From contig NC_054701.1 of NCBI RefSeq assembly GCF_016097555.1, positions 60,589,481 to 60,653,480 on the forward strand: a stretch of 64,000 bases of DNA, read 5' to 3'. The position numbers and the translations under genes are program-made. Under the pieces are notes generated by a model. That model worked only from the letters and a program-made list of their open reading frames with translations. It was not told the DNA's origin and searched no databases. The stretch is from Gigantopelta aegis (lineage: Eukaryota; Mollusca; Gastropoda; Neomphalida; Peltospiridae). Positions 16,675 through 63,681 of the stretch are shown piece by piece (position 1 is the first letter of the stretch; each line of letters opens with the position of its first letter).

Positions 16675-18620
16675 GAAACATGTCACGTAAACCATATTTG
16701 GCACCAACCATGTACAATTAATTATAAATTGAATCACCTAAAAAAAAAAATTATACAAAATTAATTACTTAAAATATCTCCATAAAAGAACCCCAGATAC
16801 GAGCTCTTAGCGGAAATTGCCGATCTTTAATGAGCAGGGCAATCACGAGGTCCGTGACGTCAGAGATGCGTCGCTTGATCTGAAGCCTTACACTTAAAAG
16901 CATTAGTCCGTACCACTCATAAAGAATCTAAGACTTGCACAGCTTACCAAAACATTGAGTGTTCGTTCGCAAAACGTTTTGCCGTATCAATATGAGCTGT
17001 TAGTAAATGAAGAAAGACACACATTTACTTACAACAGTGATACTGATGAAAAAACGGATAGCTAGTCGGAGGGTGGAGAAACATGGTGCCAGACCAGACC
17101 GGTCGACCAATTTACAGCCCGGAGCCCGAAAGTAACCCGGAGACAAAACCAAAACTCGGATGCTAATGCCGAGGTGTATACTGTTCATATTTAGCATAAA
17201 GATACACCTCGATATGATGTATTTAAATATGTAAAAAATATAAATGTAGGACAAACATTTTTTGGTGGGGTTTTTTTTTTATAGAAAATATCGCATTTTT
17301 TATGTTCGGGCTGTACATAATGAAATCTGTATGCACAGTGTAAACAAACGCTCTAATTTACGACAAGGCGCTTAACCTGGCTTGTAAAACAACATAAATG
17401 ACTTGAGAGTATAATCAACTTTTAAACTAAATATATTTCTATTTGCATCAATAGAACGAAATGGGGTTATAGTATTTTTCTCTCATAAAAAAAGTAGCAT
17501 ATTATTAGGCCTATTGGTAGGGTGCGTTAGAGTAAAAACGACCACTCACGATACCCAAGTGATAATTTTCTTTTCTTTGGTACTACGTAATTGGTCAGTT
17601 TTGTAATTTTATATGGGAAAGTCTACTTAATCAAGGGTTTTACAGCATTATTTACAGTAATGAAGCAGGGCGGCTGATAATGTCCATTAACATTGTACTA
17701 TAGTCGCGATAGGTTACGCCACAATACCCTGTGATCTTAAAAAAACTGGTACGTATGTCTAGACCGTGGTAATCACTTACCTGGTCGATACCCTGCAATA
17801 TACACCTGCCAATCAGGAATCGCATGTGCAGGCCACGGAAAGAAAGGACCAATTAACTAAAACAACACTCCGATTCTCAAGTCAGCCCGTGGATGAAACA
17901 TAATAGTTATTTCGACACCGACAGTAGTGGTTTATTTTGTATTGAACTTCGTGTTGCTTTGTGGCTTCGGGCGATGAGGAACGTTTTTGTGACGTATTCC
18001 GCCCGAAGATTAAAAACATCATTTAAAATTATTATTGTTTTCTACACGTTTTTTAAAAACATATTTAAATACATCGTACTGAGATGTATCCTCATGCCAA
18101 ATCCCATGTTTGTATATGCCATATTTAATTACTTGTTGACGTTTCCTTCTTCGGACGGTGAATACAGATTTTGTTATGTAGGCCTACAGCCCTAACATGA
18201 AAAATCTTCTTTTTTTCCCAAAAAAATAAATAAATAAAACATTCTACATGCTGAGGTGTATCTTTGTGCCAAATATGTACAATGTACACCTCGGCATTCG
18301 CAACCGAGTACTGTTTTTGTCTCCGGGTAACGTTCGGGCTGTAAATAGGCTGACACCAAAGTACTATGCGGTGTTGGTGTCCAATCTTTTCTTTTGCGAT
18401 AAAATACACGCGTCTTTCTTCGGATACAATCCTTTGGAAAACCATAAAAAGACAATCCCGATCGTTTAAACTGTTTATTTTTACACCCAAAGGCCGCGCA
18501 GTACGGCACTGTTGGACTGAAAAGATCGTAAGCCCCTTACTCCATATATAAACAGTTAACAACAATGGAAGAGTACAGCGGCTCTGACGTCACTTCCCTT
18601 TTTTTCCGAACGCTCACGAA
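16675..18620. mobile_element. Rearranged THAP-domain transposon with partly inverted halves
   Basis: Plus-strand 17095-17250 and minus-strand 18370-18230 are diverged copies of the same segment, sharing 'acccggagacaaaa', 'aatgccgaggtgta' and 'aaagatacacctc'; a third partial minus copy lies at 18105-18040. The segment 17335-17880 also matches 24695-25250 in order (e.g. 'gtaaaacaacataaatgact', 'tacacctgccaatca', 'caggccacggaaagaaa'). TGACGTCA-like sites lie near both sides (16856 and 18588). Kolobok-like origin is possible because that superfamily carries THAP domains and uses TTAA targets, and 'TTTAAAGG' stands at the left side. Ends are uncertain. Confidence 0.5.
18192..18509 (-). pseudogene. 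Decayed THAP zinc-finger domain
   Basis: The 105-codon frame begins MPYCAAFGCKNKQFK and continues 'GLSFYGFPKD', 'RKDWTPTP' and 'AYLQPERYPE'. This follows the THAP order: N-terminal C-x4-C, a Phe/Pro block, then Trp. The usual second C-x2-H pair ('CSxHF') reads 'VSAY' instead, so zinc binding should be lost. About 80-90 residues is the normal THAP length; the rest of the frame is not recognised. THAP domains are the DNA-binding heads of P-element and Kolobok transposases and of host proteins descended from them. Here it sits inside repeat DNA and is best read as a transposon relic. Confidence 0.6.
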
Positions 18621-50743: not shown

Positions 50744-53700
50744 TCAAGGGCATGCATTGTATTCTTTTATAAACAGCTTTCTGTTGATGCACCGGGCTTT
50801 CTCAAACAGACAACTGTTAAAAAAAAATGATGTACGCATAATTATAATAAATAAATTGTCCACCAGTATCCATACATTCCATAAAAATATAATTGTTATT
50901 GTTGTCGTCATTGTTAATTAATTTAATCATACACTCTCAATTAAGCACACCCAGTTTTTGTTTTACCATGACTGTCAAGCAAAATGTTCTTACTTGCGCC
51001 CAATGTGAAATATTTGGGAAAATTAAGGTTATCCGAAAGATGAGTTTTTTTAACTAACAAAACCACAAATAATAATAACAATGTTTAATATTGTAATTGC
51101 TTTAATTACGGTTTTGATAGTGTTGTGTTGGAGGCGAATTGGGAGCCAATATGACTGGATCTGGTATAATTTACTATTTCTGTCCAAACCCCCCCCCCCC
51201 CCCCCCCCCCCCCCCAAACAACTGTACTTCACTGTAATCTGGTAAGGACAACCCCAGTCCATGAAATCAGTAGCGAATGGAACAGCCATGTGCCCGGATG
51301 ACAGCCTCTACCCTTTTTCTCCTTACCCACTGTCATCTGATACGATTACGTGATAACTGCTGCCATGCTGGATGAAATGCTGCCCCCTAAGGCCCAAAAC
51401 ACACCGGGTCTGGGTCTGGCGAGTGTTGCAAAGATGCCATGTGTGGTATATTTTGGAGTGTGTGGCAAATATGGCATGCCTGGTGTATTTTGGCGTCTGG
51501 GTCTGTGACGGTTACTTGTTTTCAGTATACATGTATGTTAATGGATTCATATCTTTAGATAAATTTACTTCTATAAACATCAATAATAATAAGTATGAGA
51601 AATCCACATTGATTAATATATACTTTTCCTGTTGTTTATTAAGAAAAATTAATGAGTAAGGTTCGAACATTGTGCAGCTACCAGTCCGGCAGTGTTAAAA
51701 TATAGCACATCTTCTGTGAAGTCTGTTGCCATGGGCCTAATTCACTGAACTCTCGCAATTTTGCGATCTCGCAGTGCAATGCTAAAAGACTTGCAAAGAG
51801 TATGCTTTGTTGTCTAGCAGAGCCTAAGACATCTTTGTGAATTAGGCCCTAGATCTCTGTAGTTCGCGCCAGCACAGACGCAGTGTTTTGTCACATTGGT
51901 TCAATGCGTTTCATTTTCGACTGGTACCATAGTCGCCAAACCCAGATCCAGATCCGGTGTGTTTTGGGCCGTACGCAGATAAAATATACTCTACATGAAA
52001 GGCCCTTTTTTAAGGAAAAAATTATTAAAAGTTGCATTTTTATCAAACGGTCCTTGATTATTTATTCATTTATCTGTGTATATTTGTTTATCCTAAGTGC
52101 ACTTACAAGTTGTTGTAAGTCGTGGCATCTGAACCACATACTATCTCTACGTCGGTGCCGCAGTGACTGTAATGAAGATTTCTGCAGAAGAATTCGTAGG
52201 TAGCTTCACTCCCATGACTCCCTGAATTTCCAGTGAAGCACGTGCCGTTGTGAATCATGTGGATGTCGCGATCGTGGCAGTGAGCTTTGGAAAACAAACA
52301 GCTGAAAAACGCACACAAATATTTTAAAAACTAAACCCACACATTTGTGCAGTACCTGGTCATCTTATTAAGCCATTATTAAAATACAAGCATCAACTGT
52401 TTTGTAATTGACTGGATTTCATTTTCTTATACACCCCGTTGGTGAGAACACCATGCGTTATTTTTGATAACACATGGTTGTTTACACAAGTACGTGTGTT
52501 AACAATTTCAAGACATACGACTGGCTGCTAATAGGTGATGACCAGGTCACCAAAACGAATGAATGAATGTTTACCGACACCCCAGCACGAAAAATACATC
52601 GGCTATTGGGTGTCAAACTATGGTACTGCAAACAAATAAGGTGATGATCAACATCAATATAAAAATTCAAGAGGGGCATGGCTAACCATTATATCTCGAC
52701 TGAATGTAAAAGTTGTAGCGAGACTAACGGATCGAGATTAACAGTAACGGGCAAATAACCTTTGAATCATGCCCCCGGATACAACAAATAACTCGCGCCT
52801 TCGGCGCTCCTTCAAATGCCGCCCCCCCCCCCCCCCCCACACACACACAATAATGTTCACCATGCTACTGGCCTGTATAGTCACTTGATATCTGTACAAA
52901 GTTATCGGTATAGTCATTTGGTAGATATTTTGGTTTTGCTTTGTCATGTGAATCAAATAGTTTAGCTACTAAATTAAAACTAAATTATTTTTAAACATGG
53001 GCACAACAATACTGTATCTTCTACAGCTACTCACTGGTTATCATACGTGACGTGGTTGCTCCCACATACATGATGATTGGCAAACAGGCTGCAGTCAAGT
53101 ATGGATACGTACTTACAAACAATGGTTAAATCTATCCGACTTTGACCGAGGCTCACTGAAAAATAAACAAACATTCGAATAATACGTTATGAAACAGCCA
53201 TTTTCTGTTTTAAAAACTGGGGTAAGCCCTAAATAACACACGTGCGTTAATTAAACACATTATCTTCGACATTGACTGCTGTGTAATTTCCGCTGATTCA
53301 AATAGTCTCCTGCTTGCAGGCAATAAAAAACGTTAAATTTGTTTTAAAACAATAATAAACAAAAACAAAAACAACAACAGCGAACAAAAGTTTATTTGTT
53401 AAAGTTTGGTTTGTTCAACGACACCACTAGAGGACATTGATTTATTAATCATCGGTTATTGGATGTCAAACATAGATATAGAGAGGAAACCCGCTAAATT
53501 TTTCCATTTGTAGCAAGGGATCTTTTATATGCACTATCCCATAGACACAGCAGGACATACCACGGCCTTTGATATACCAGTCGTGGTGCACTGGCTGGAA
53601 CGAGAAATTGCCCAATGGGCCACCGACGGACATCGATCCCAGACCGACCGCACATCAAGCGAGTGCTTTACCACTGGGCTACGTCCCGCCCGCAACAGCG

Positions 53701-54563
53701 AACAGGCAGATCTATAGACTAACACACCCTCATTGTTAGATTCGCATTCACAGCACAGCAGCTCTAAGGATTGTATCCCCTCGGTGGATCCATTCTCTGA
53801 TAGTTTTTCCCTGTTTCAACTAGTGACCCATGATTGGTATATCAAAAGCTGTGGTATGTGCTGTCCTAAGGCAAATGTTTGACATCCAATCGCTTTAAAT
53901 GCAAAGACATGTAAGATCGATTCCTATCAGTGAACTCCGGATTTTATACAGTGCCCCTGAGTGGTACACCAAAAGCTGTAATTCGTGTGCCGTTCTGTCT
54001 ATAGAAAAGTGCATGCAAAAAAAGATCAGCTGTTGTTGTCCGATATGAGTAGTCTATGTGACGACATGGGGTTTCCTCTCTAGACCAAATATCGAAATAA
54101 CCTTATATTAAAACCAAATTGCCATAGTTGAAAATGTGCCGAGGTGTCGTTAAATAAAATATTATTTTTCTTAGCTTTAGTTTACTTTGTAAACCAAAGA
54201 TGATTGACTTACAAATTAAAACCCTCTTCGGCGGGCCCACTGAGGTTTTGTCGTCTCGGCCAGTGCTCCACGACTGGTATATCAAAAGCTATGATGTATG
54301 CTGTCCTGTCATTGGGAAAATATATCTAAAAGATCTCTTGCCCGTTCTGGTAAATTGTGATGGGGTTTCCTCTGAATACTGCATGTCAGAATTATCAAAT
54401 GTTTGAAATCCAATTAGCCGATGGTTAATTAATCAATGTGTTAATCAGTGGTATCATCAAACAAAACAAACTTTAAATTTTAACTTTACACATTATAAAT
54501 ATAATCGTAGGTATTAGTACATATACCTGCCACAAGGCAGCATAAAGTAATGAACCTCCACAT
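50744..54563 (-). CDS. Secreted two-Kazal-domain protein, complete (four exons, 140 aa)
   Basis: Exons on the minus strand are 54527-54563, 53035-53155, 52107-52301 and 50744-50813: 423 nt with stop TGA. Junctions are GT..AG with phases 1, 2, 2 and the frame is open. The first exon gives MWRFITLCCLVA, a short signal peptide probably cut soon after. Twelve cysteines follow in two sets of six: C-x7-C-x8-C-x10-C-x6-C-x12-C, with 'VCGSNHVTYDNHC', and C-x7-C-x7-C-x10-C-x6-C-x12-C, with 'VCGSDATTYNNFC'. 'VCGSD..TYNN' is the Kazal signature, and x6 between Cys4 and Cys5 is the follistatin/agrin-like form. By Kazal geometry the reactive P1 residues would be Leu (domain 1) and Thr (domain 2). The protein should be extracellular; protease inhibition is inferred, not shown. 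Each Kazal domain is split by an intron after Cys3. A paralogue lies upstream on the same strand. Confidence 0.85.
51189..51215 (+). repeat. C homopolymer
   Basis: About 27 C in the last intron of the Kazal gene. Confidence 0.95.
51391..51970. mobile_element. 580-bp MITE with GGCCCAAAACACACCGG ends, host to a smaller MITE
   Basis: The left end GGCCCAAAACACACCGGGTC and right end GATCCGGTGTGTTTTGGGCC are inverse over about 33 bp with few mismatches. It lies in the last intron of the Kazal gene. No clear target duplication. Confidence 0.75.
51733..51849. mobile_element. 117-bp nested MITE with GGGCCTAATTCAC ends
   Basis: GGGCCTAATTCAC at 51733 mirrors GTGAATTAGGCCC ending at 51849, with an inner hairpin 'ctcgcaattttgcgatctcg'. 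It sits within the 51391-51970 element and so is younger. Confidence 0.75.
52556..52622 (-). repeat. SINE tail with ATTC repeat
   Basis: Reverse complement of 'gacacccaatagccgatg ... ctggggtgtcg ... cattcattcattcg'. Intron 2 of the Kazal gene. Confidence 0.7.
52818..52850 (+). repeat. C run followed by (CA)n
   Basis: About 20 C, then a short CA repeat, in intron 2 of the Kazal gene. Confidence 0.9.
53399..53696 (-). repeat. SINE, tRNA-like head type, in Kazal intron 1
   Basis: It runs from tail 'aaagtttggtttgttcaacg' to head 'ccactgggctacgtcccgcc'. The head is of the 'tagctcagtgg' type and the tail of the 'aacaaac' type. Full length. Confidence 0.85.
53760..54475 (+). repeat. Three old SINE pieces in a row in Kazal intron 1
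   Basis: Diverged SINE cores lie at about 53765-53895 ('ggtggatccattctctgat', 'gctgtggtatgtgctgtcct'), 53935-54160 ('gatcgattcctatcagtg', 'gtgtcgttaaataaaat') and 54230-54475 ('gccagtgctccacgactgg', 'gggtttcctctgaatactg', 'caaacaaaacaaac'). All are on the plus strand. Confidence 0.6.
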
Positions 54564-54606
54564 TTTCCTAACTTCTTGGCCAAGAAAGGGAGATCAGTTA
54601 TTTTCG

Positions 54607-54615
54607 TATTTTATC
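54607..54615 (-). promoter_or_regulatory. TATA-like box upstream of the downstream Kazal gene
   Basis: GATAAAATA on the minus strand begins about 50 nt before the ATG at 54563-54561. It would allow a 5' UTR of roughly 20 nt. The spacing is plausible; in AT-rich DNA a chance match is quite possible. Confidence 0.3.
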
Positions 54616-54812
54616 AGCGGTCGTGGTTTTATCTCACTCGAACTTCATAACATAGAAAGTGCCGTGACAGCTGTTGTTAGTGTAAGAGACATAGTTGGAT
54701 TGTCTAAAAATAACGACGAACAATATTCTAGCTATTGAGATCGTCAGTCATCCAAAGCCCACTGGACTATCGTTTAGAAACTTAAACACAAAGAAACCAA
54801 TACACCACAACT

Positions 54813-55124
54813 CGTTAAAGTTTGTTTTGTTTAGCAATACCACTAGAGCATTTTGATTAATAATCATCGACTACTGGATTTCAAATATTGGTAATTTTCA
54901 TTTTAGATAAGAAACCCATTACATTTTTTCCATTGATAGCAAGGGATCTTTTATATGTGCACCATCCTCCCACAGACAGGATAACACATAATATGACCCT
55001 TGATATACCAGTCGTAGTGCACTGGCTGGAACGAGAAATAGCCCAGTGGGTCCACCGACAGGGATCGATCCTAAAGCGACCGCGTACCAAGCGAGCGCTT
55101 TACCACTGGACTACGTCTCGTCCT
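54813..55124 (-). repeat. SINE, tRNA-like head type
   Basis: Tail 'aaagtttgttttgtttagca', core 'gcaagggatcttttatatg', head 'actggactacgtctcgtcct'. It lies 250 bp upstream of the Kazal gene start. Confidence 0.85.
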
Positions 55125-55690
55125 ACGAGAGTGGAAACCCGTGATGCACTGACTAGAAGGAGAAATTCGAATTTACGAAGCCTGGTTTTCTTCAACGGAG
55201 ATGTTTAAACATCGTAAATGTAAGGCGAAAACGGGCTTTGTAAAGTTGGCCCTATATTTTAGCCAAAGATCTAAACTAACAGTATGATAAGCCCAGGGCC
55301 TTGCTAACCCGTAGGGTTGAATGTTTAATGAACCTCATAACTGTATGCTATTATTCGATGTCCTTGAATATTATCTTGTCGGTTTAATTTAGTAGCTGTA
55401 TTTCAGGCAAAACTGGAATACTGAAAATCCCGTTTCTTATCTTGATCTTTCCAATTAGCCTCAGGTACACCACACCACTACCATTACATATCTGCATTGT
55501 TGTTAACAGCGCTCTGCGGAAACAGGAATTCCCTCATTGCGGTGTGAATGGATGTCAGTAAATGTAGTATACATGCAATACCAATATTACTTGGAGTGTC
55601 TTCAAATTATGGATGTACACGAAATGTTTTTAATGTCTTTTATCATCATAATTTCTTTTATCATCTGTTTGTATTTCACTGTGTCTGTCT
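55125..55690. other. Unassigned stretch
   Basis: No gene or named repeat seen between the SINE and the microsatellite cluster. Confidence 0.45.
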
Positions 55691-55834
55691 GTCTGTCTTT
55701 TTGTCTGTGTCTCTCTCTCTCTCTTCCTCTCTCTTTCCCTCCCTCTCTCTCCCCCCCCCTCTCTCTCTCTATCATATCTCTCTGTCTGTCTCTGTCTCTG
55801 TGTGTGTCTGTATATATATCATGTAATGTATGTA

Positions 55835-55880
<46 letters not shown>
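55691..55880 (+). repeat. Microsatellite cluster (TC)n, (GT)n
   Basis: Imperfect TC/TGTC repeats (55685-55800), (GT)n at about 55838-55874, then TA repeats. The 162-codon frame through it is an artefact. Confidence 0.9.
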
Positions 55881-55885
<5 letters not shown>

Positions 55886-56309
55886 TGATATACTATTCTA
55901 GTATAATATTTATATTTTATGACGAACAGTGTGACGAGTGCCAATGTTGGACATTTCGATCCCTGTGTAGTATGGTTGTGAAGTATTTGTGTTGTATTAC
56001 GTGGATGAAGAATGCTTATATTTAAACAACTAGCTGTGGGCGGAAAGAACGTAATAAATATTGGAAGACAGCATTTGGAAAATAAATTGCCAATATGTTG
56101 CTGTTGCTGAATGAAAAGGTAACTCTTTATTTGTGTTTACCTCAGAATACTGTTTTAGTAAAGGAAAAAAGCATCCATATACAGTCTGAGATTTCTGAAA
56201 TGATTTCATTGGTTTATATATCAAATCTCATGACTGATTATGCAGATATTAGACGGTAAAGGTCAAATATCCTATTGATATAAAATGCGGGTAGGAGCGT
56301 TCGTCCCCA

Positions 56310-56540
56310 CGATCCGCCTCGGTGGTGTGTATATATAGTAAAGCCACCGGACAAAAGACTGGTAGACTCCCACCCAGAGAGAGTTTAACGTGTCAATGAG
56401 TAGCTGTAAGGCCACCACGCAGACTTCTCTCTAACTAACCACTAACCATCTGTCCTGGACACAGTACAGATAGTGGAGGGTGCATGTCCTGGATAGCTTG
56501 TTTGAACCTTAACTGAATATATGCACGAAATTCAGTATCA
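56310..56540 (+). repeat. SINE of the 'tcctggac...cttaattggata' type, diverged
   Basis: 'gatccgcctcggtggtg' head, 'tcccacccagagagag', 'actaaccatctgtcctggac' and 'tttgaaccttaactgaata'. The same type is at 58574-58835 and 63121-63385. Confidence 0.7.
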
Positions 56541-56825
56541 ATTAAATGTTTGGTCAAACATTCAGCGACAGTTCAGGATTCAAAATCTCATTTTGCCTTT
56601 TCTTCTGCGGGCCAGTATCAAAGTTTATCTTACTTTTTAAAAATTAAATTTTGTTGTTGTTTAGGAGCGGTGACGTGTAATAAAAAGTAGGTTACAGACG
56701 TGGTTAAAGCATTGCAAATTGCATGTACAACAGCCTTTTAATCAGCTTGTTCGGTTGCCAGTAGACACCGTGTGGCAAATGCATAAACCACATTTTTGAC
56801 AAAGCAGGACATCTACATTGCAACC

Positions 56826-56861
56826 CCCCCCCCCCCACACACACACACACACAACACACAC

Positions 56862-56893
<32 letters not shown>

Positions 56894-56911
56894 ACAAGCA
56901 CACAAAAAAAA
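56826..56911 (+). repeat. C run and (CA)n microsatellite
   Basis: About 11 C, then interrupted CA repeats to about 56892 and an A run. The minus-strand Cys/Val-rich frame here is an artefact. Confidence 0.95.
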
Positions 56912-57282
56912 AAAAATGAAAGAAAGAAAAAACTCCTTTTTAAGTTAACACTTCTCATGTCTGATTAGGGTTGGGAGGGTATAAATTTCTTTGAATCTGG
57001 TTTTGGATAACCATGCAACCAGGACGTAAACCGAGCATTTTGAACTGTGGCTAAGCCCTGGCATGACTGAATGATGGCGTATCCATGAGACAAGTAGCGA
57101 GACACCTTCAAATTAGCCATTCCGTCATCCAACGGCTACAATAGCGTTTCTGCACCACTAGCATCTAGCAAAGGAGCCATACCACCTCAGGTGCAGTGAT
57201 TAGTGGCCCTTAACGTTTTGTGACTACTATAGTTACTACATTAAATGCTATTTTGATATATTAATGTCGTAAACATTCAGTA

Positions 57283-57283
<1 letters not shown>

Positions 57284-57371
<88 letters not shown>
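57284..57371 (+). repeat. (TC)n microsatellite
   Basis: About 43 uninterrupted TC units, followed by 'tttcaaagg' tandem copies to 57440 (six imperfect units of about 10-14 bp). Confidence 0.97.
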
Positions 57372-57373
<2 letters not shown>

Positions 57374-57544
57374 TGAAGGATTTCAAAGTTTCAAAGGACT
57401 TTCAAAGGCTTTCAAAGGACTCTTGAAGGCTTTCAAAGTTTTATGGTAGACATTCCAATACGAATCATCACTGATTAACATGATATCTGTTGCTATATTC
57501 TATTTTGTTTATGTGCATATTTTCAACTATCTGGTCAAAATAAT

Positions 57545-57900
57545 AAAGGGTGCCACCTGTGGGCAAAATTGCGAACACCTGATTTCATCACCGTTTTGAC
57601 GGTCATTCACAAATACGCGACACAACAATTGTCTAAATACCCTTTTAACTGTCTTGTGCAAATTTAGATTTATTATTTAGCAGTGTTATGAGTGGCAGGT
57701 CTCTTTACAGAGTAAAAAAAAGATGGTGTCGTCCTAGGGAGTGGCAGACCTCTCGTAGACGAGCCATCTGACAGTGATTCAGTGGAGCATCCAGACATTG
57801 TTAAAAAAAGATGGTGTCGTCCTAGGGAGTGGCAGACCTCTCGTAGACGAGCCATCTGACAGTGATTCAGTGGAGCATCCAGACATTGTTAAAACGTCAT
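57545..57900 (+). repeat. Dispersed repeat with an exact 88-bp tandem duplication
   Basis: Units at about 57714-57801 and 57802-57889 look identical ('agatggtgtcgtcctaggga', 'cctctcgtagacgagccatc'). The flank 57550-57625 ('gggtgccacctgtgggcaaa', 'cgttttgacggtcattcac') recurs in diverged form at 62625-62700, and 'gagtggcag' with 'tgtcctcg' at 63053-63115. This appears to be one dispersed repeat family lying near both Kazal genes. Confidence 0.65.
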
Positions 57901-57998
57901 TTTTAACTGTCGTGTACAGAAATACGAGCTATAATATGTTAATAATTTTGTCGTTCAGGTACACTTCTTGTTTTACTTTACCCGTTCAGCCTATTACA

Positions 57999-58390
57999 TT
58001 GAAGGGACATTCCTGAGTTTGCTCCATTATAAGATGTTTCTGACTAATAAAATATTTCTACGATTAAACTTACATCTTAAACACATTTTCTTGTTTAGAA
58101 TATCAGTGTCTGTATATTCAATGTGTTTCTGGTCGTCTTAATATTTCTCAGAAACCCAAACTGGCTATTGTCTTCAAATAATTTCGTACGTACGAAAAAG
58201 CAATATTTTAGGAAATATATATTTTTTTAACCTAGTACAAATATTACAACGATAAGAAACACGTTTAATATACAGCCACTAATATTTTATGCAAAAAAAT
58301 ATATTTGATATGTAATTACAATCGTTAAAAAAGTTTCTGTTAGTCGATAACATCTTAAAAATTTCAGCAAACTCAGGAATGTCCCTTTAA
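57999..58390. mobile_element. Second copy of the AAGGGACATTCCYGAGTTTG MITE
   Basis: Left end 'gaagggacattcctgagttt' and right end 'aactcaggaatgtcccTTAA' (TTAA 58387-58390; the left one is decayed to TTGA). It shares interior 'ttgtttagaatatcagtgtc' in opposite orientation to the 11536 copy. Confidence 0.75.
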
Positions 58391-58573
58391 TTAAATTTCA
58401 GCCGCTAACAATTAGCGTTTAAATTAATTAAAACAAGGCACAAAACCCCAACTCTGTATTGTATTTATTGCTGTTTGTAGCAGTACAAATTTGATACTGT
58501 CTTGGTATAAGTATCTGAACTCCCAACTCTGCTGCACAGTCAGCTGAAAGAAGAAATAATACACTTGGAAATG

Positions 58574-58835
58574 ACCGGCCTCGGTGGTGTCGTGATTAAG
58601 CCATCGGACATAGGGCTGGTAGGTACTGAGTTCGCAGCCCGGTACCGGCTCCCACCCAGAGCGAGTTTTAACGACTCATTGAGTAGGTGTAAGACCACTA
58701 CACCCTCTTCTCTCTCACTAATCACAAACAACTAACCCACTGTCCTGGACAGACAGCTCAGATAGCTGAGGTGTGTGCCCATGACAATGTGCTTGAACCT
58801 TAATTGGATATAAGCACAAAAATATATTGAAATGA
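58574..58835 (+). repeat. SINE of the 'tcctggac...cttaattggata' type, full length
   Basis: 'ccggcctcggtggtgtcgtg' head, 'ttcgcagcccggtaccggct', 'aactaacccactgtcctgga', tail 'taattggatataagcac'. Its head resembles the 13484 SINE, but the body differs. Confidence 0.85.
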
Positions 58836-59029
58836 AAAACTTGGAAATGAGAGACGATTCTGAACATTTCACTGTCTAGGGATGTTTTCATAATGCAAAT
58901 CAGTAACGTAAAAATACAACATATACTAATTTAAAATTGTAAGATAATATTTCAAAAGGATTTATTGCTGATGGTCACATTTGGTTGAACTAACACTGGT
59001 AACAGATTTTATTGTTTATGTCCCACTGT

Positions 59030-59175
59030 TCCCAGCCAGTGCAATGCGACTGGTATACCAATGGCCATGGAATACACCGTCTTGTCTATGGAAAAGTGCA
59101 TATAAAAGATCTTTTGTGTGTTTGTTCGTTTAAATGTATTCAGGTTTCGTCAAATAAATATTTCTTTCTTTTTAT
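59030..59175 (+). repeat. SINE core fragment
   Basis: 'cccagccagtgcaatgcgac', 'gtgcatataaaagatctttt' and 'gtcaaataaatatttctttc' without a head. Confidence 0.65.
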
Positions 59176-59264
59176 TTCAATGGATAGTCTATGTTACTAT
59201 ATTATCAACGTTCTTATTTGTACACAAAATACAGTTTTTGATATATAAATAATTTTGTACTTTT

Positions 59265-60170
59265 GGTAAGACGCAATGCCTATTTGGGTGTAGGTCTATA
59301 TTGCGAACATCTGGATAGATTACTTACCAAGTAATGTGTGTTTGAGTGTAGGTCTATATTGCGGACATCTGGATAGATTACTTACCAAGTAATGTGTGTT
59401 TGAATGTAGGTCTATATTGCGGACATCTGGATAGATTACTTACCAAGTAATGTGTGTTTGAGTGTAGGTCTGTATTGCGGACACCTGGATAGATTACTTA
59501 CTAAGTAATGTGTGTTTGAGTGTAGGACTGTATTGCGGACACCTGGATAGATTACTTACCATGTAATGTGTGTTTGAATGTAGGTCTATATTGCGGTCAT
59601 CTGGATAGATTACTTACCAAGTAATGTGTGTTTGAGTGTAAGTCTGTATTGCGGACATCTGGATGTGTTTGAATGTAGGTCTGTATTGCGGACAGCTGGA
59701 TAGATTACTTACCAAGTAATGTGTGTTTGAATGTAGGTCTGTATTGCGGACATCTGGATAGATTACTTACCAAGTAATGTATGTTTGAGTGTAGGTCTGT
59801 ATTGCGGACATCTGGATAGATTATTTACCAAGTAATGTGTGTTTGAATGTAGGTCTGTATTGCGGACATCTGGATAGATTACTTACCAAGTAATGTGTGT
59901 TTGAATGTAGGTCTGTATTGCGGACATCTGGATAGATTACTTACTAAGTAATGTGTGTTTGAATGTAGGTCTGTATTGCGGACATCTGGATGTGTTTGAA
60001 TGTAGGTCTGTATTGCGGACATCTGGATAGATTACTTACTAAGTAATGTGTGTTTGAGTGTAGGTCTGTATTGCGGACATCTGGATAGATTACTTACTAA
60101 GTAATGTGTGTTGGAGTGTAGGTCTATACTGTGGACATTGGGACAGATTACTTACCAACGAACGTGTGTT
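59265..60170 (-). repeat. 58-bp minisatellite (about 15 units) at the 3' end of the upstream Kazal gene
   Basis: The unit, on the plus strand, contains 'tgtaggtctatattgcggac', 'atctggatagattacttacc' and 'aagtaatgtgtgtttga'. The period is 58 bp (starts at 59291, 59349, 59407 and so on). Two units, near 59660 and 59990, lack the same stretch of about 23 bp. On the gene strand each full unit reads TTG|GTAAGTAATC, a good 5' splice-site match. The last unit joins directly to the end of the Kazal terminal exon. Confidence 0.95.
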
Positions 60171-60179
60171 TTTCTTTCT

Positions 60180-63100
60180 TTACGCACATGCGTTGTATTC
60201 TTTTATAAATATGTTTCTGTCGTTACAACGTGCCTTCTCAAAGAGACAGCTGTATAATAAAAATCAAGCATAAACAGTTGAAATATTCGAAATTAATAAG
60301 AAAACAATGTGTTAAAAACGTCTTTAGAATTTCGTTCTGAAACATCACCATCATATTAAAACGCAGTCACGTACACACACGTGCGTTCATACTTATACGC
60401 AAACGCGCATTTATCAGACGTCCCCTGCGCGTGCTGTAACCTCACCGTGGTGCAGGGGTGTAACATTCTCTTTGAGAATGGCCAATACAGCACACTTGAT
60501 ACAATTGTAATTTTGAGTAAAAGTCATTATCTATCTGTGATATTTGTATTTTTGCACAGTTCTTTACAATGCTTTTATTTAAATCTTGAATTTTTATATT
60601 GACGTTGATCATCACTTTATTTATTTGCATTACCATAGATTGACACCCAATAGTCAATGTATTTTTCGTGCTGGGGTGTCGTTAAACATTCATTCATTCA
60701 TTCATTATCAAACGTACTTAAAACAACTTTTAACGAAAAAATAGCTTTTACACTGAACTCCCAATTTAAACTTGCAAGTACCTAAATGAAACAAAATATT
60801 TTAATTTTTAACCTGTTGTTAAAAAGATTTTTTTGTGTTATGTAGGAGAGCACCTGGCCATCTAAAATGTTATCACACCCAATCATATTATATACTGTGT
60901 AACAAGTGTTTAACCGCCTAAAGATTCATCCAACATTCAATAACTAAAAATGTTAAAATCTTATCTGAAGACAGGAACATGCTGATATTCATGATGATTT
61001 GATACGTTCTGAATCATCACATATCCTAAAGATGCAATAGGATACATGTCCTTACAAAATGTTTTTTCTCTCTTTTTCTTCAAACACCCATGGCCGAATG
61101 TGCCTTAAGCTGCGATTAGGCACCTCCCTACAACCCTGCAAATAATTTAGCCCTGCTCACCCATCTTCGGGAGTGATCCATGTTTATAGTCTGTACCCTC
61201 TATACCCTTTGACCAATCCAGCTTGAGTGACCCTACCAGGAGCTGAAGTTCCCGCTAATACAGCTATATTGGTCAAGGAATGAACCATGCTGTACAGCAA
61301 AACACAACTATGAATGTCTTCAAGAGGCATGACGAATAATTCTGAAATTATAATTCTGAATAAAAAATACTATTGGTAGTAAATCTTAAGGCAGAGATGA
61401 ATTTTACTTGTAGAAAGCAGGGAATTGCATTTCAGTAAATCTAGTTTTCAAAAATGTACGGGGGAGCATATCCCCTCAGTGTCTACTTGCTTCCGCCGTA
61501 CCTGATCAAACTTCTGACGCCTGCCCAACAGTCACATTATCTTGAGCTTCCTAGGACACCAGAACAACCAAGAACACACACGTTATACAGACATAAATTC
61601 TCTTAGGAACAAACTGAAGTTTTAACCAGAAGTATCACACAGTGCTTTAAGAGGACTGCGTTACCTTTAATTAACAGTTTACTTACAAGTTATTGTATGT
61701 CTTCCCGTCGGACGCACAGACTATCTCCATGTCGGTGCCACAGTGTGTGTGTAGAAGATTTCTGCAGAAGAACTCATACGTGGTCTGGCTGCCGTGGCTC
61801 CCCCCATCCTTGTGTCCGGCATCACTGCATGACGTGTTGTAAGTCAGGTGCAAATTTCTGTCCTGGCAATGTGCTTTGGAAAACATACAGCTGAAAGAAA
61901 ATAATTATTAAAATCTTTAATCGTTTTTCTTTTTTCTTGTATACTTAACCTGACCTAACACTAATGGCATTTCCCACTGGAACAGGTTGAGTTGAAAAGA
62001 GATGATTTATTTAACGACCTGGCAATGTGCTTTGGAAAACATGCTGAAACAAATAACTGTAGAAAATTTGGATCGTTTTCGAGTGCTTGCTTGAGGTGCG
62101 TGCGTCGCAGGATCGATCCACCTCGATGGATCCATTCAGCTGATTTTTTTTTTTTTGATTTTTTTCCAGTCAGTGCACCACAACTGGTCAAAGGTAGTGA
62201 TATGTGCTTTCCTGTCTGTGGGAAAATGTACGTATAAATGATCCCTTGCTGCATTAGAAAAAATGTAGCGGGTTTCCTCTGATGACTACGAGTCAGAATG
62301 ACCAAATGTTTGACATCCAATAGCCGATGATTAATTAATCATTGTGCTCCAGTGGTGTCGTTAAACAAACCAAACTTCTTCTTTTCTTCCATCAGGCTTA
62401 TAATGTCTACGGACGTCTGAGGGCATTCAAAATGTTTTATGGCAGACATTTGGAGGCTATATCTACTAAATACGATGCATCACTGACCAAAATGATGACT
62501 GATGCTATTCCATACCTTTTCATCTCTTGGGTGAAACTCTTGCACGCTTAATACATTTTTTTGTCCTCGTTTTAGATGAAGTTATGGACTTAGTAGCTGT
62601 GGTGAATCATGACTGGTGCCACCGGTAGGGCAGGGTATGCCTACCTTTCGTGAACACTTGATATCATTACTGTTTTGACAGTGATTCATAAGTGCATGTC
62701 ATCACAGCTATATGTATTCCAATGAGCTCTGTCCTGCGCTAGTTTTGATTGAAGGAAATGTTTTATTTAACGACGCACTCAATACATTGTAAGGACCACA
62801 CAGATATTGAGAGAGGAAACCCGCTGTCGCCACTTCATGGGCTACTCTTTTCGATTAGCAGCAAGGTATCTTTTATATGCACCATCCCACAGACATGGTA
62901 GTACATACCACGGCCTTTGATATGCTAGCCGTGGTGCACTGGCTGGAACGAGAAATAGCCCAATGGGCCCACTGACGAGGATCAATCCCAGACCGACCGC
63001 TTTACCACTGGGCTACGTTTCGCCCTAGTTTTGATTGAGTAAACAAGTCTCAGAGTGGCAGTCCTCTTTGTGGCGTTGCAAGAAAGATGTATTGTCCTCG

Positions 63101-63681
63101 AGAGAGGCTGTCCTCTTACATCGGCCACGGTGGCGCAGTGGTTAAGTCATCGAACTACAGGCTGGTAGTTACAGGGTTCGCAGCCCGGTACCGGCTCCAA
63201 CCAGAGTGAGTTCTTTAGGGCTCAGTGGGTAAGACCACTACACCATCTTCTCTCTCACTAACCACTAACCAACCAACTAACCCACTGTCCTGGACTGACT
63301 GCCCAGATAGCGGAGATGTGTGCCCAGGACAGCATGCTTGAACTTAATTGGATATAAGCACGAAAATAAGTTGAAATGAAATGTCATCTTACAGACGAGG
63401 TACTAGGTAGATAGTAGTTTTAAAAAAAGAAGTAAATATAAGCCTATTCGTTTAAAAAAAAACCCACACAAAATTTTTTTGGGTCGTCATCTCATTAATA
63501 TACATAATATGACAAAAGACTAACTACATATATTTTCTTATTATAGATTACTATACTTACTGGCTGTCATATGTGATGTTGTTGCTAGCACAGACTTCGT
63601 GGTTTGCAAACAGGTTGCAGTTGAGTATAGAGACATACTTGCAAATGATGGTCAAATCCACTGCAGTTTGGCTGAGGCACA
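60180..63681 (-). CDS. Secreted two-Kazal-domain protein, upstream paralogue (exon 1 outside window)
   Basis: Exons on the minus strand are 63561-63681, 61687-61890 and 60180-60249 (stop TAA). They have the same phases as the downstream paralogue and identical lengths for the first and last (121 and 70 nt); the middle one is 9 nt longer. Domain 1 reads 'CKYVSILNCNLFANHEVC', 'ASNNITYDSHC' and 'MFSKAHC'; domain 2 reads 'FFCRNLLHTHCGTDMEIVC', 'ASDGKTYNNFC' and 'LFEKARC', ending 'IKEYNACA'. Twelve cysteines fit two Kazal units; the exon-2 peptide is about two thirds identical to its partner by eye. The Gly after Cys3 is Ala in both domains. P1 would again be Leu and Thr. The signal-peptide exon should lie right of 64000; nothing suitable was seen at 63682-64000. 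An extra Cys encoded at the start of exon 2 is probably in or near the signal peptide. Confidence 0.82.
60640..60712 (+). repeat. SINE tail with ATTC repeat
   Basis: 'gacacccaatagtcaatg', 'gtgctggggtgtcgttaaac', then (ATTC)n. It is in the last intron of the upstream Kazal gene. Confidence 0.75.
60713..61686. other. Intron of the upstream Kazal gene, unassigned
   Basis: No exon seen. The part 61085-61300 has unusually high GC ('gccctgctcacccatcttcg', 'gaccctaccaggagctgaag') and may be an old element of unknown type. Confidence 0.4.
62085..62385 (+). repeat. SINE in intron 2 of the upstream Kazal gene
   Basis: 'cgcaggatcgatccacctcg', a T run, core 'aaatgatcccttgctgc', 'agcgggtttcctctgatgac', tail 'gtgtcgttaaacaaacc'. 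The head is poor; the same type is at 28383. Confidence 0.8.
62390..62740 (+). repeat. Dispersed repeat fragment shared with 57400-57625
   Basis: 'attcaaaatgttttatggca' and 'cagacatttggaggct' parallel 57424-57455, and 'ggtgccaccggtagggcagg' with 'cactgttttgacagtgattca'-like wording parallels 57550-57610. Confidence 0.5.
62753..63028 (-). repeat. SINE, tRNA-like head type
   Basis: Tail 'aaatgttttatttaacgacg', core 'gcagcaaggtatcttttata', head 'accactgggctacgtttcgc'. Confidence 0.85.
63121..63385 (+). repeat. SINE of the 'tcctggac...ttaattggata' type
   Basis: 'tcggccacggtggcgcagtgg'-like head, 'ttcgcagcccggtaccggct', 'actaacccactgtcctggac', 'ttaattggatataagcac'. Full length; 175 bp from Kazal exon 2. 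Confidence 0.85.

Follow-up and report, generated by a model that had tools for sequence, protein, structure and literature searches.

A six-gene Kazal cluster of Gigantopelta aegis in which each domain is split before its fourth cysteine

Results

Organisation of the locus

The window analysed here is a stretch of 64,000 nucleotides (C3:60589481-60653480, part of contig C3 in an assembly of 1.149 Gb). A mollusc-type haemocyanin domain was matched five times in this assembly, on two small unplaced contigs (best E 5.8e-33). The 377-aa frame from one of these contigs matches 14 distinct haemocyanin chains with known structures at E up to 1e-20, including KLH1 of the keyhole limpet, which makes a molluscan host most likely if the two contigs belong to it. 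Two genes on the minus strand, A and B, are the leftmost of six Kazal genes (A to F) that are related and stand in a row, with at least 15 Kazal domains within 84 kb (window coordinates 50744-134497, C3:60640224-60723977); genes C to F lie on the plus strand (Table 1). The preliminary description of the window had spoken of a tandem pair. Two separate double-Kazal genes are indeed present, but the pair was an undercount of the six related genes in the row. The same description had proposed to look further right for the signal exon and for more copies, and both were found there, the latter as genes C to F.

Table 1. Features of the Kazal locus and other annotated stretches (window coordinates, continued beyond the right end of the window where needed).
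Gene or region	Feature	Position	Strand	Length	Content
A	exon 1	54527-54563	minus	37 nt	signal peptide start MWRFITLCCLVA; donor gtatat, phase 1
A	exon 2	53035-53155	minus	121 nt	signal end, N-terminal extension, domain 1 Cys1-Cys3; donor gtgagt, phase 2
A	exon 3	52107-52301	minus	195 nt	domain 1 Cys4-Cys6, linker, domain 2 Cys1-Cys3; symmetric, phase 2-2
A	exon 4	50744-50813	minus	70 nt	domain 2 Cys4-Cys6 and stop
B	exon 1	65494-65530 (C3:60654974-60655010)	minus	37 nt	signal; 1.5 kb beyond the window
B	exon 2	63561-63681	minus	121 nt	domain 1 Cys1-Cys3
B	exon 3	61687-61890	minus	204 nt	domain 1 Cys4-Cys6, linker, domain 2 Cys1-Cys3; symmetric, phase 2-2
B	exon 4	60180-60249	minus	70 nt	domain 2 Cys4-Cys6 and stop
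B	exon 3 fragment	62018-62053	minus		intron 2; truncated copy of the exon 3 acceptor and first bases
C	gene	67226-73021	plus		right of B
D	gene	87831-94912	plus	151 aa	two domains, four-exon plan as in A and B
E	gene	99352-108011	plus	217 aa	three domains
F	gene	120396-134497	plus	548 aa	five domains and a long Thr-rich linker
F	linker exon	130742-131524 (C3:60720222-60721004)	plus	783 nt	Thr-rich, repeat-like, mucin-like linker separating Kazal domains 3 and 4
A/B introns and flanks	dispersed repeat	53398-53691, 54814-55123, 62848-63025, 64779-65093 (last beyond the window)		up to ~300 bp
Window	tandem duplication	57715-57894		88-bp unit	2.0 copies, perfect (100%)
Window	minisatellite	59283-60171		58-bp unit	~15 copies
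Window	open frame	18192-18536	minus	114 aa	weak THAP-domain match

Genes A and B each consist of four exons with intron phases 1, 2 and 2, and encode proteins of 140 and 143 residues respectively. The four-exon plan with a terminal exon of 70 nt, as first described, was re-derived for both genes, and in both models the introns lie directly before Cys4 and in phase 2, except for the first one (phase 1), exactly as had been reported. The two had also been taken as separate genes rather than one fused multi-Kazal gene. Because each has its own signal exon and its own stop, such a fusion is unlikely at the DNA level. Two stretches of Pfam Kazal_2 were detected in protein A (E = 7.5e-12, 45.6 bits) and in protein B (E = 1e-12, 48.4 bits; cut-off 22.8 in both cases), which agrees with the two domains per protein proposed earlier. 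The proteins start with hydrophobic stretches (MWRFITLCCLVAVSLG, MWKLIVFCCLVAVCLS) begun by a separate exon, and judging from this signal-like start A and B are probably secreted. Protein B has one extra cysteine, at residue 14, which probably falls within its signal peptide. Downstream of the coding sequence, the first AATAAA lies 60 nt beyond the stop of gene A and 1004 nt beyond that of gene B. The minisatellite of Table 1 ends 8 nt from the gene B stop codon, so that the 3' UTR of B probably either crosses this array or terminates within it.

The proteins encoded by C, D, E and F reached 38.6, 60.8, 79.3 and 98.7 bits with Kazal_2 (cut-off 22.8), with 2, 3 and 5 stretches in D, E and F. 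From A to F, the number of domains per protein is 2, 2, 1 or 2, 2, 3 and 5. Protein F in addition exceeds the threshold that Pfam sets for the Kazal family of complement factor I (39.5 versus 27.7 bits). Signal exons of 37 nt and of equal phase are found in A, B, C and D; those of D, E and F were picked among several candidates or on weak similarity. All 22 introns of the six models are GT-AG, the first intron is in phase 1 in each model, and all 15 intradomain introns are in phase 2 and cut the codon before Cys4. Because exons with splice sites and fitting phases were selected when the models were built, these counts describe the models and do not test them independently. One further intron, between domains and in phase 1, occurs in gene E. 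Independent support for the models comes from sequence comparison, in which conservation between genes A, B and C is limited to the exons.

In gene C, exons 1, 2 and 4 were found, and they join in frame into a one-Kazal protein of 72 aa that is scored by Pfam. Exon 3 was searched for in the intron between exons 2 and 4, where it would lie, and none was found. This intron contains a run of 200 N inside a tandem-repeat array, so gene C may have one domain or two, and C as a settled single-Kazal gene was set aside. That C is a hybrid without exon 3, in which the loop half of domain 1 is joined to the back half of domain 2, is a possible reading, though less likely than not: the in-frame join, the product scored by Pfam and the fruitless search for exon 3 are all consistent with it, but the exon may simply be missing from the sequence.

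Searches for related sequences

Protein A was used as a query against the whole assembly. Among the 21 matches listed (best candidates only), 11 fall in the cluster, including the nine best, and the best of all is exon 3 of gene A itself. The ten others lie on other contigs (best E 0.02). Two of these are Kazal domains of other genes, on C841 and C15, that were also found in the Kazal_2 scan. Four of the other eight (E 0.02-0.12) were rejected as relatives: among themselves they are 88-95% alike, their match to A lies only in a frame interrupted by a stop, and another frame resembles a retroelement. On C3, none of the best candidates scored (E up to 1) lies to the left of A, and a pattern search across the leftmost 50 kb of the window revealed no exon judged Kazal-like by eye. 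Looser matches to the front-half or back-half pattern outside the genes, four of them left of A in the window, were without a Kazal framework and were discarded by eye. The open frame with a THAP match in this part of the window (E 0.0012) reached 20 bits, under the cut-off of 23.9.

A six-frame scan of the genome with Kazal_2 gave 30 places at E up to 0.001, none of which lies within the A-F cluster; the splitting of every domain into two parts presumably accounts for this. The same scan revealed another dense Kazal_2 group (C15:19995714-20094483), with 9 of the 30 matches listed. In five of these nine, nearly the whole domain stands in one stop-free frame, and for this reason we regard the C15 group as a different type of gene.

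The split domains were also sought as halves, with patterns written after the cluster had been seen and thus not blind. Over a stretch of 293 kb, the front-half Kazal pattern followed by a phase-2 donor was found 15 times, compared with a mean of 0.13 (maximum 1) in 30 first-order resamples, and the back-half pattern preceded by an acceptor was found 15 times, compared with a mean of 1.27 (maximum 5). All 15 front and all 15 back matches lie inside model exons of the cluster.

Conservation of A and B

Of 140 aligned residues, 95 are common to the two proteins A and B. For this pair, dN and dS were 0.19 and 2.08 with NG86, and 0.21 and 1.25 with YN00. The resulting dN/dS of 0.09 or 0.17, depending on the method, is rough because dS is saturated. 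Over 72 codons, NG86 gave dN 0.19 and dS 2.23 for A-C, and dN 0.155 and dS 0.61 for B-C; the comparisons with D were saturated in all three pairs, and the YN00 value applies to A-B only. The direction is clear for A versus B, amino-acid changes being estimated as few relative to silent ones. Outside apparent repeats, the DNA similarity of A and B reaches no further than 15 nt past the four exons (6-7 nt for exon 2 of A), the sole exception being a short copy, within intron 2 of B, of the beginning of exon 3. The copies of the dispersed repeat found in the introns and flanks of A and B are 75-83% alike in pairs, and the window also contains a perfect tandem duplication (Table 1).

These data make it very improbable that the two genes are in decay or go unexpressed. 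The 3' end of B, running into the minisatellite with its first AATAAA so far from the stop, could be taken as a sign of decay, but both genes have kept open frames, intact splice sites and all Kazal cysteines, their amino-acid changes are few relative to silent ones, and conservation is limited to the exons.

Features of the Kazal domains

By pattern, all 15 domains have six cysteines in Kazal order and spacing, and these are invariant in the 14 domains that were aligned (C left out). Eight residues separate Cys2 from Cys3 (x8) in 8 of the 15 domains, among them the first domain of all six genes, and seven (x7) in the remaining 7. As first noted, the spacing is x8 in domain 1 and x7 in domain 2 of both A and B. 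The predicted P1 residues named in the preliminary description were likewise recovered at Cys2+2, with Leu in domain 1 and Thr in domain 2 of both proteins; P1 is assigned by position only in the x8 loops. Over the cluster, this position is occupied by Thr (4), Leu (3), Asp (2), Ser (2), Glu, Gly, His and Lys (1 each). The Cys3-Cys4 spacing is x10 in 14 domains and x9 in one, and Cys4-Cys5 is x6 in all 15. The residue two before Cys4 is Asn in 9 domains, Thr in 4 and Ser in 2; Asn is present in both domains of A and in domain 2 of B, and Ser in domain 1 of B.

Mean pairwise identity among the 14 aligned domains is 12% for Cys1-Cys2, 14% for the loop, 38% for Cys3-Cys4, 45% for Cys4-Cys5 and 19% for Cys5-Cys6. 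Since the loop is as variable as the Cys1-Cys2 segment, its variation across the cluster is, on this alignment, no special sign of inhibitor evolution. Leaving aside the C-terminal residue, A and B are identical at 12 of 15 positions of the reactive loop, versus 69 of 110 non-Cys positions elsewhere. In a tree of the 15 domains, one branch separates the first domains from the last ones (support 50/96), a hint that the two-domain plan may be older than the gene copies; the branches of this tree are long, 5 and 7 of 500 label shuffles were as low, and one of its 12 inner branches is well supported.

Exon modules and domain number

In this plan an internal exon starts with the back half of one domain and, after a linker, ends with the front half of the following one. 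Copying or dropping such a symmetric 2-2 exon would add or remove one Kazal domain with frame and fold intact, and this would explain how proteins with 2, 2, 1 or 2, 2, 3 and 5 domains came to stand in one cluster. Exon duplication thus seems to be the route by which domain number changed. Within gene B, the start of exon 3 has been copied: the fragment in intron 2 matches positions 61862-61900 at 35 of 36 aligned bases, plus a 3-nt gap. The likeness to exon 3 stops afterwards, the fragment is too short for half a domain, and a weaker trace is seen also to exon 3 of A.

A broader reading can be put forward tentatively. The phase 2-2 exon, a circularly shifted Kazal unit, might be acquired, lost or skipped as a whole, and genes, perhaps also transcripts, could in this way switch domain number and pair the loop of one domain with the scaffold of another; gene C would be a natural hybrid and the fragment in B a failed copy. 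The fragment makes this reading slightly more probable, though it stays well below even odds. The cluster is a clear case of intron phase and position making domain number easy to change. Among the open-licence literature matches listed, we noticed neither a mollusc Kazal cluster of this plan nor a Kazal intron before Cys4, each of which is a weak negative. A suspected pair has become a defined family of six genes with detailed exon models, one that a plain six-frame domain scan misses; its proteins belong to a well-known kind, and its exon logic is neat.

Putative function of A and B

We favour, by a modest margin over even chance, the reading that A and B are separate and functional, each encoding a small secreted two-Kazal protein, and that these proteins are most likely extracellular, substrate-like inhibitors of serine proteases. 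The gene structure, the cluster and the low share of amino-acid changes were read from the DNA, and inhibition and its targets are assumed from the family; protease inhibition as such we would put at slightly better than evens. For a short secreted Kazal protein, inhibition is the role assumed by default, and inhibition as suggested in the preliminary description is plausible. In classical Kazal inhibitors (MEROPS I1), the reactive loop is Cys2-x7-Cys3 with P1 at Cys2+2, and the Cys4-Cys5 spacing is x2. This short spacing is not found here, where it is x6 in 15 of 15 domains. A Leu at P1 suits chymotrypsin-, elastase- or subtilisin-like proteases, and domain 1 would be directed at such enzymes, while the target of domain 2 would be a different one or one bound more weakly. 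Strong inhibitors do not typically have Gly-Thr-Asp at P2-P1-P1', as domain 2 does, or an x8 loop like that of domain 1. Should the proteins prove to be inhibitors, the cluster would offer a ready-made range of specificities through its varied P1 residues.

Alternatively, A and B could be secreted Kazal proteins without inhibitory activity towards proteases, whose partner would be a growth factor, a matrix or mucus component or a channel, in the manner of the modules of agrin and follistatin, these being mainly binding proteins. We consider this a real possibility, somewhat short of an even one. The invariable x6 spacing and the mixed residues at Cys2+2 point in this direction, as does the whole-sequence ranking, which agrin and follistatin lead in both searches. 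With a profile of 14 domains, agrin was found at 4.3e-55, follistatin at 7.5e-22, rhodniin at 5.1e-12, and ovomucoids at 9.5e-10 and weaker. However, this ranking is inflated, the lead of agrin and follistatin being largely due to their repeated domains: single-stretch scores are alike (38.8 bits for a follistatin-related chain, 37.5 for an anemone elastase inhibitor), and with gene A alone follistatin (2.5e-6) and rhodniin (3.5e-6) are level. A follistatin module is an EGF-like N-lobe fused to a Kazal domain, and this EGF-like half was not reported in A-F, where Pfam (A and B to E = 1, C-F to E = 0.1) listed Kazal families only, plus two weak, unrelated matches below cut-off. Moreover, the loop conservation between A and B and the Asn before Cys4 suit an inhibitor, and P1 Glu and His occur in the active inhibitor CrSPI-1, according to excerpts of PMC3082530.

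Comparison with known Kazal proteins

Avian ovomucoids and SPINK proteins share with A and B the Kazal fold and P1 at Cys2+2, and the third domain of turkey ovomucoid has Leu at P1. Their Cys4-Cys5 spacing is x2, and the intradomain intron of SPINK1 lies after Cys5, that of the A-F cluster before Cys4. With the 14-domain profile, 1yu6 was matched at 9.5e-10 (two stretches), OMTKY3 at 2.3e-5 and SPINK1 at 1.5e-4. Agrin and follistatin, which head the whole-sequence ranking, have Kazal modules with the same Cys4-x6-Cys5 spacing, but they are large multi-domain proteins with several Kazal stretches, whereas the proteins described here are short and stand-alone, with the x8 loop in 8 of 15 domains.

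Among gastropods, Kazal domains are contained in adhesive mucus proteins of limpets (excerpts of PMC7333891) and a Kazal signature is carried by turripeptides (excerpts of PMC4460706). Kazal domains in gastropod secretions are therefore on record; a role of A-F in such secretions is not implied by these cases.

Two-domain Kazal inhibitors are known, and excerpts of PMC3082530 name rhodniin and CrSPI-1. Rhodniin (PDB 1tbq), whose target is thrombin according to the same excerpts, is like A a small two-Kazal protein and is matched by protein A at 3.5e-6. It differs from A in length (103 versus 140 residues) and in its Cys4-x3-Cys5 spacing, versus x6 here; x3 is the spacing given for group II Kazal inhibitors in PMC3082530 (excerpts). 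CrSPI-1 of the horseshoe crab, a weak match to the 14-domain profile (3pis, 4.9e-4), is described there as a non-classical group I inhibitor with P1 His and Glu, and its domain 1 has two disulfides only, unlike the domains of the cluster. As in A and B, it has two Kazal domains with differing P1 residues, and each of them binds one subtilisin molecule. In its domain 2, an Asn two before Cys4 helps to keep the loop rigid (PMC3082530, excerpts), and an Asn stands at the same place in 9 of the 15 domains described here.
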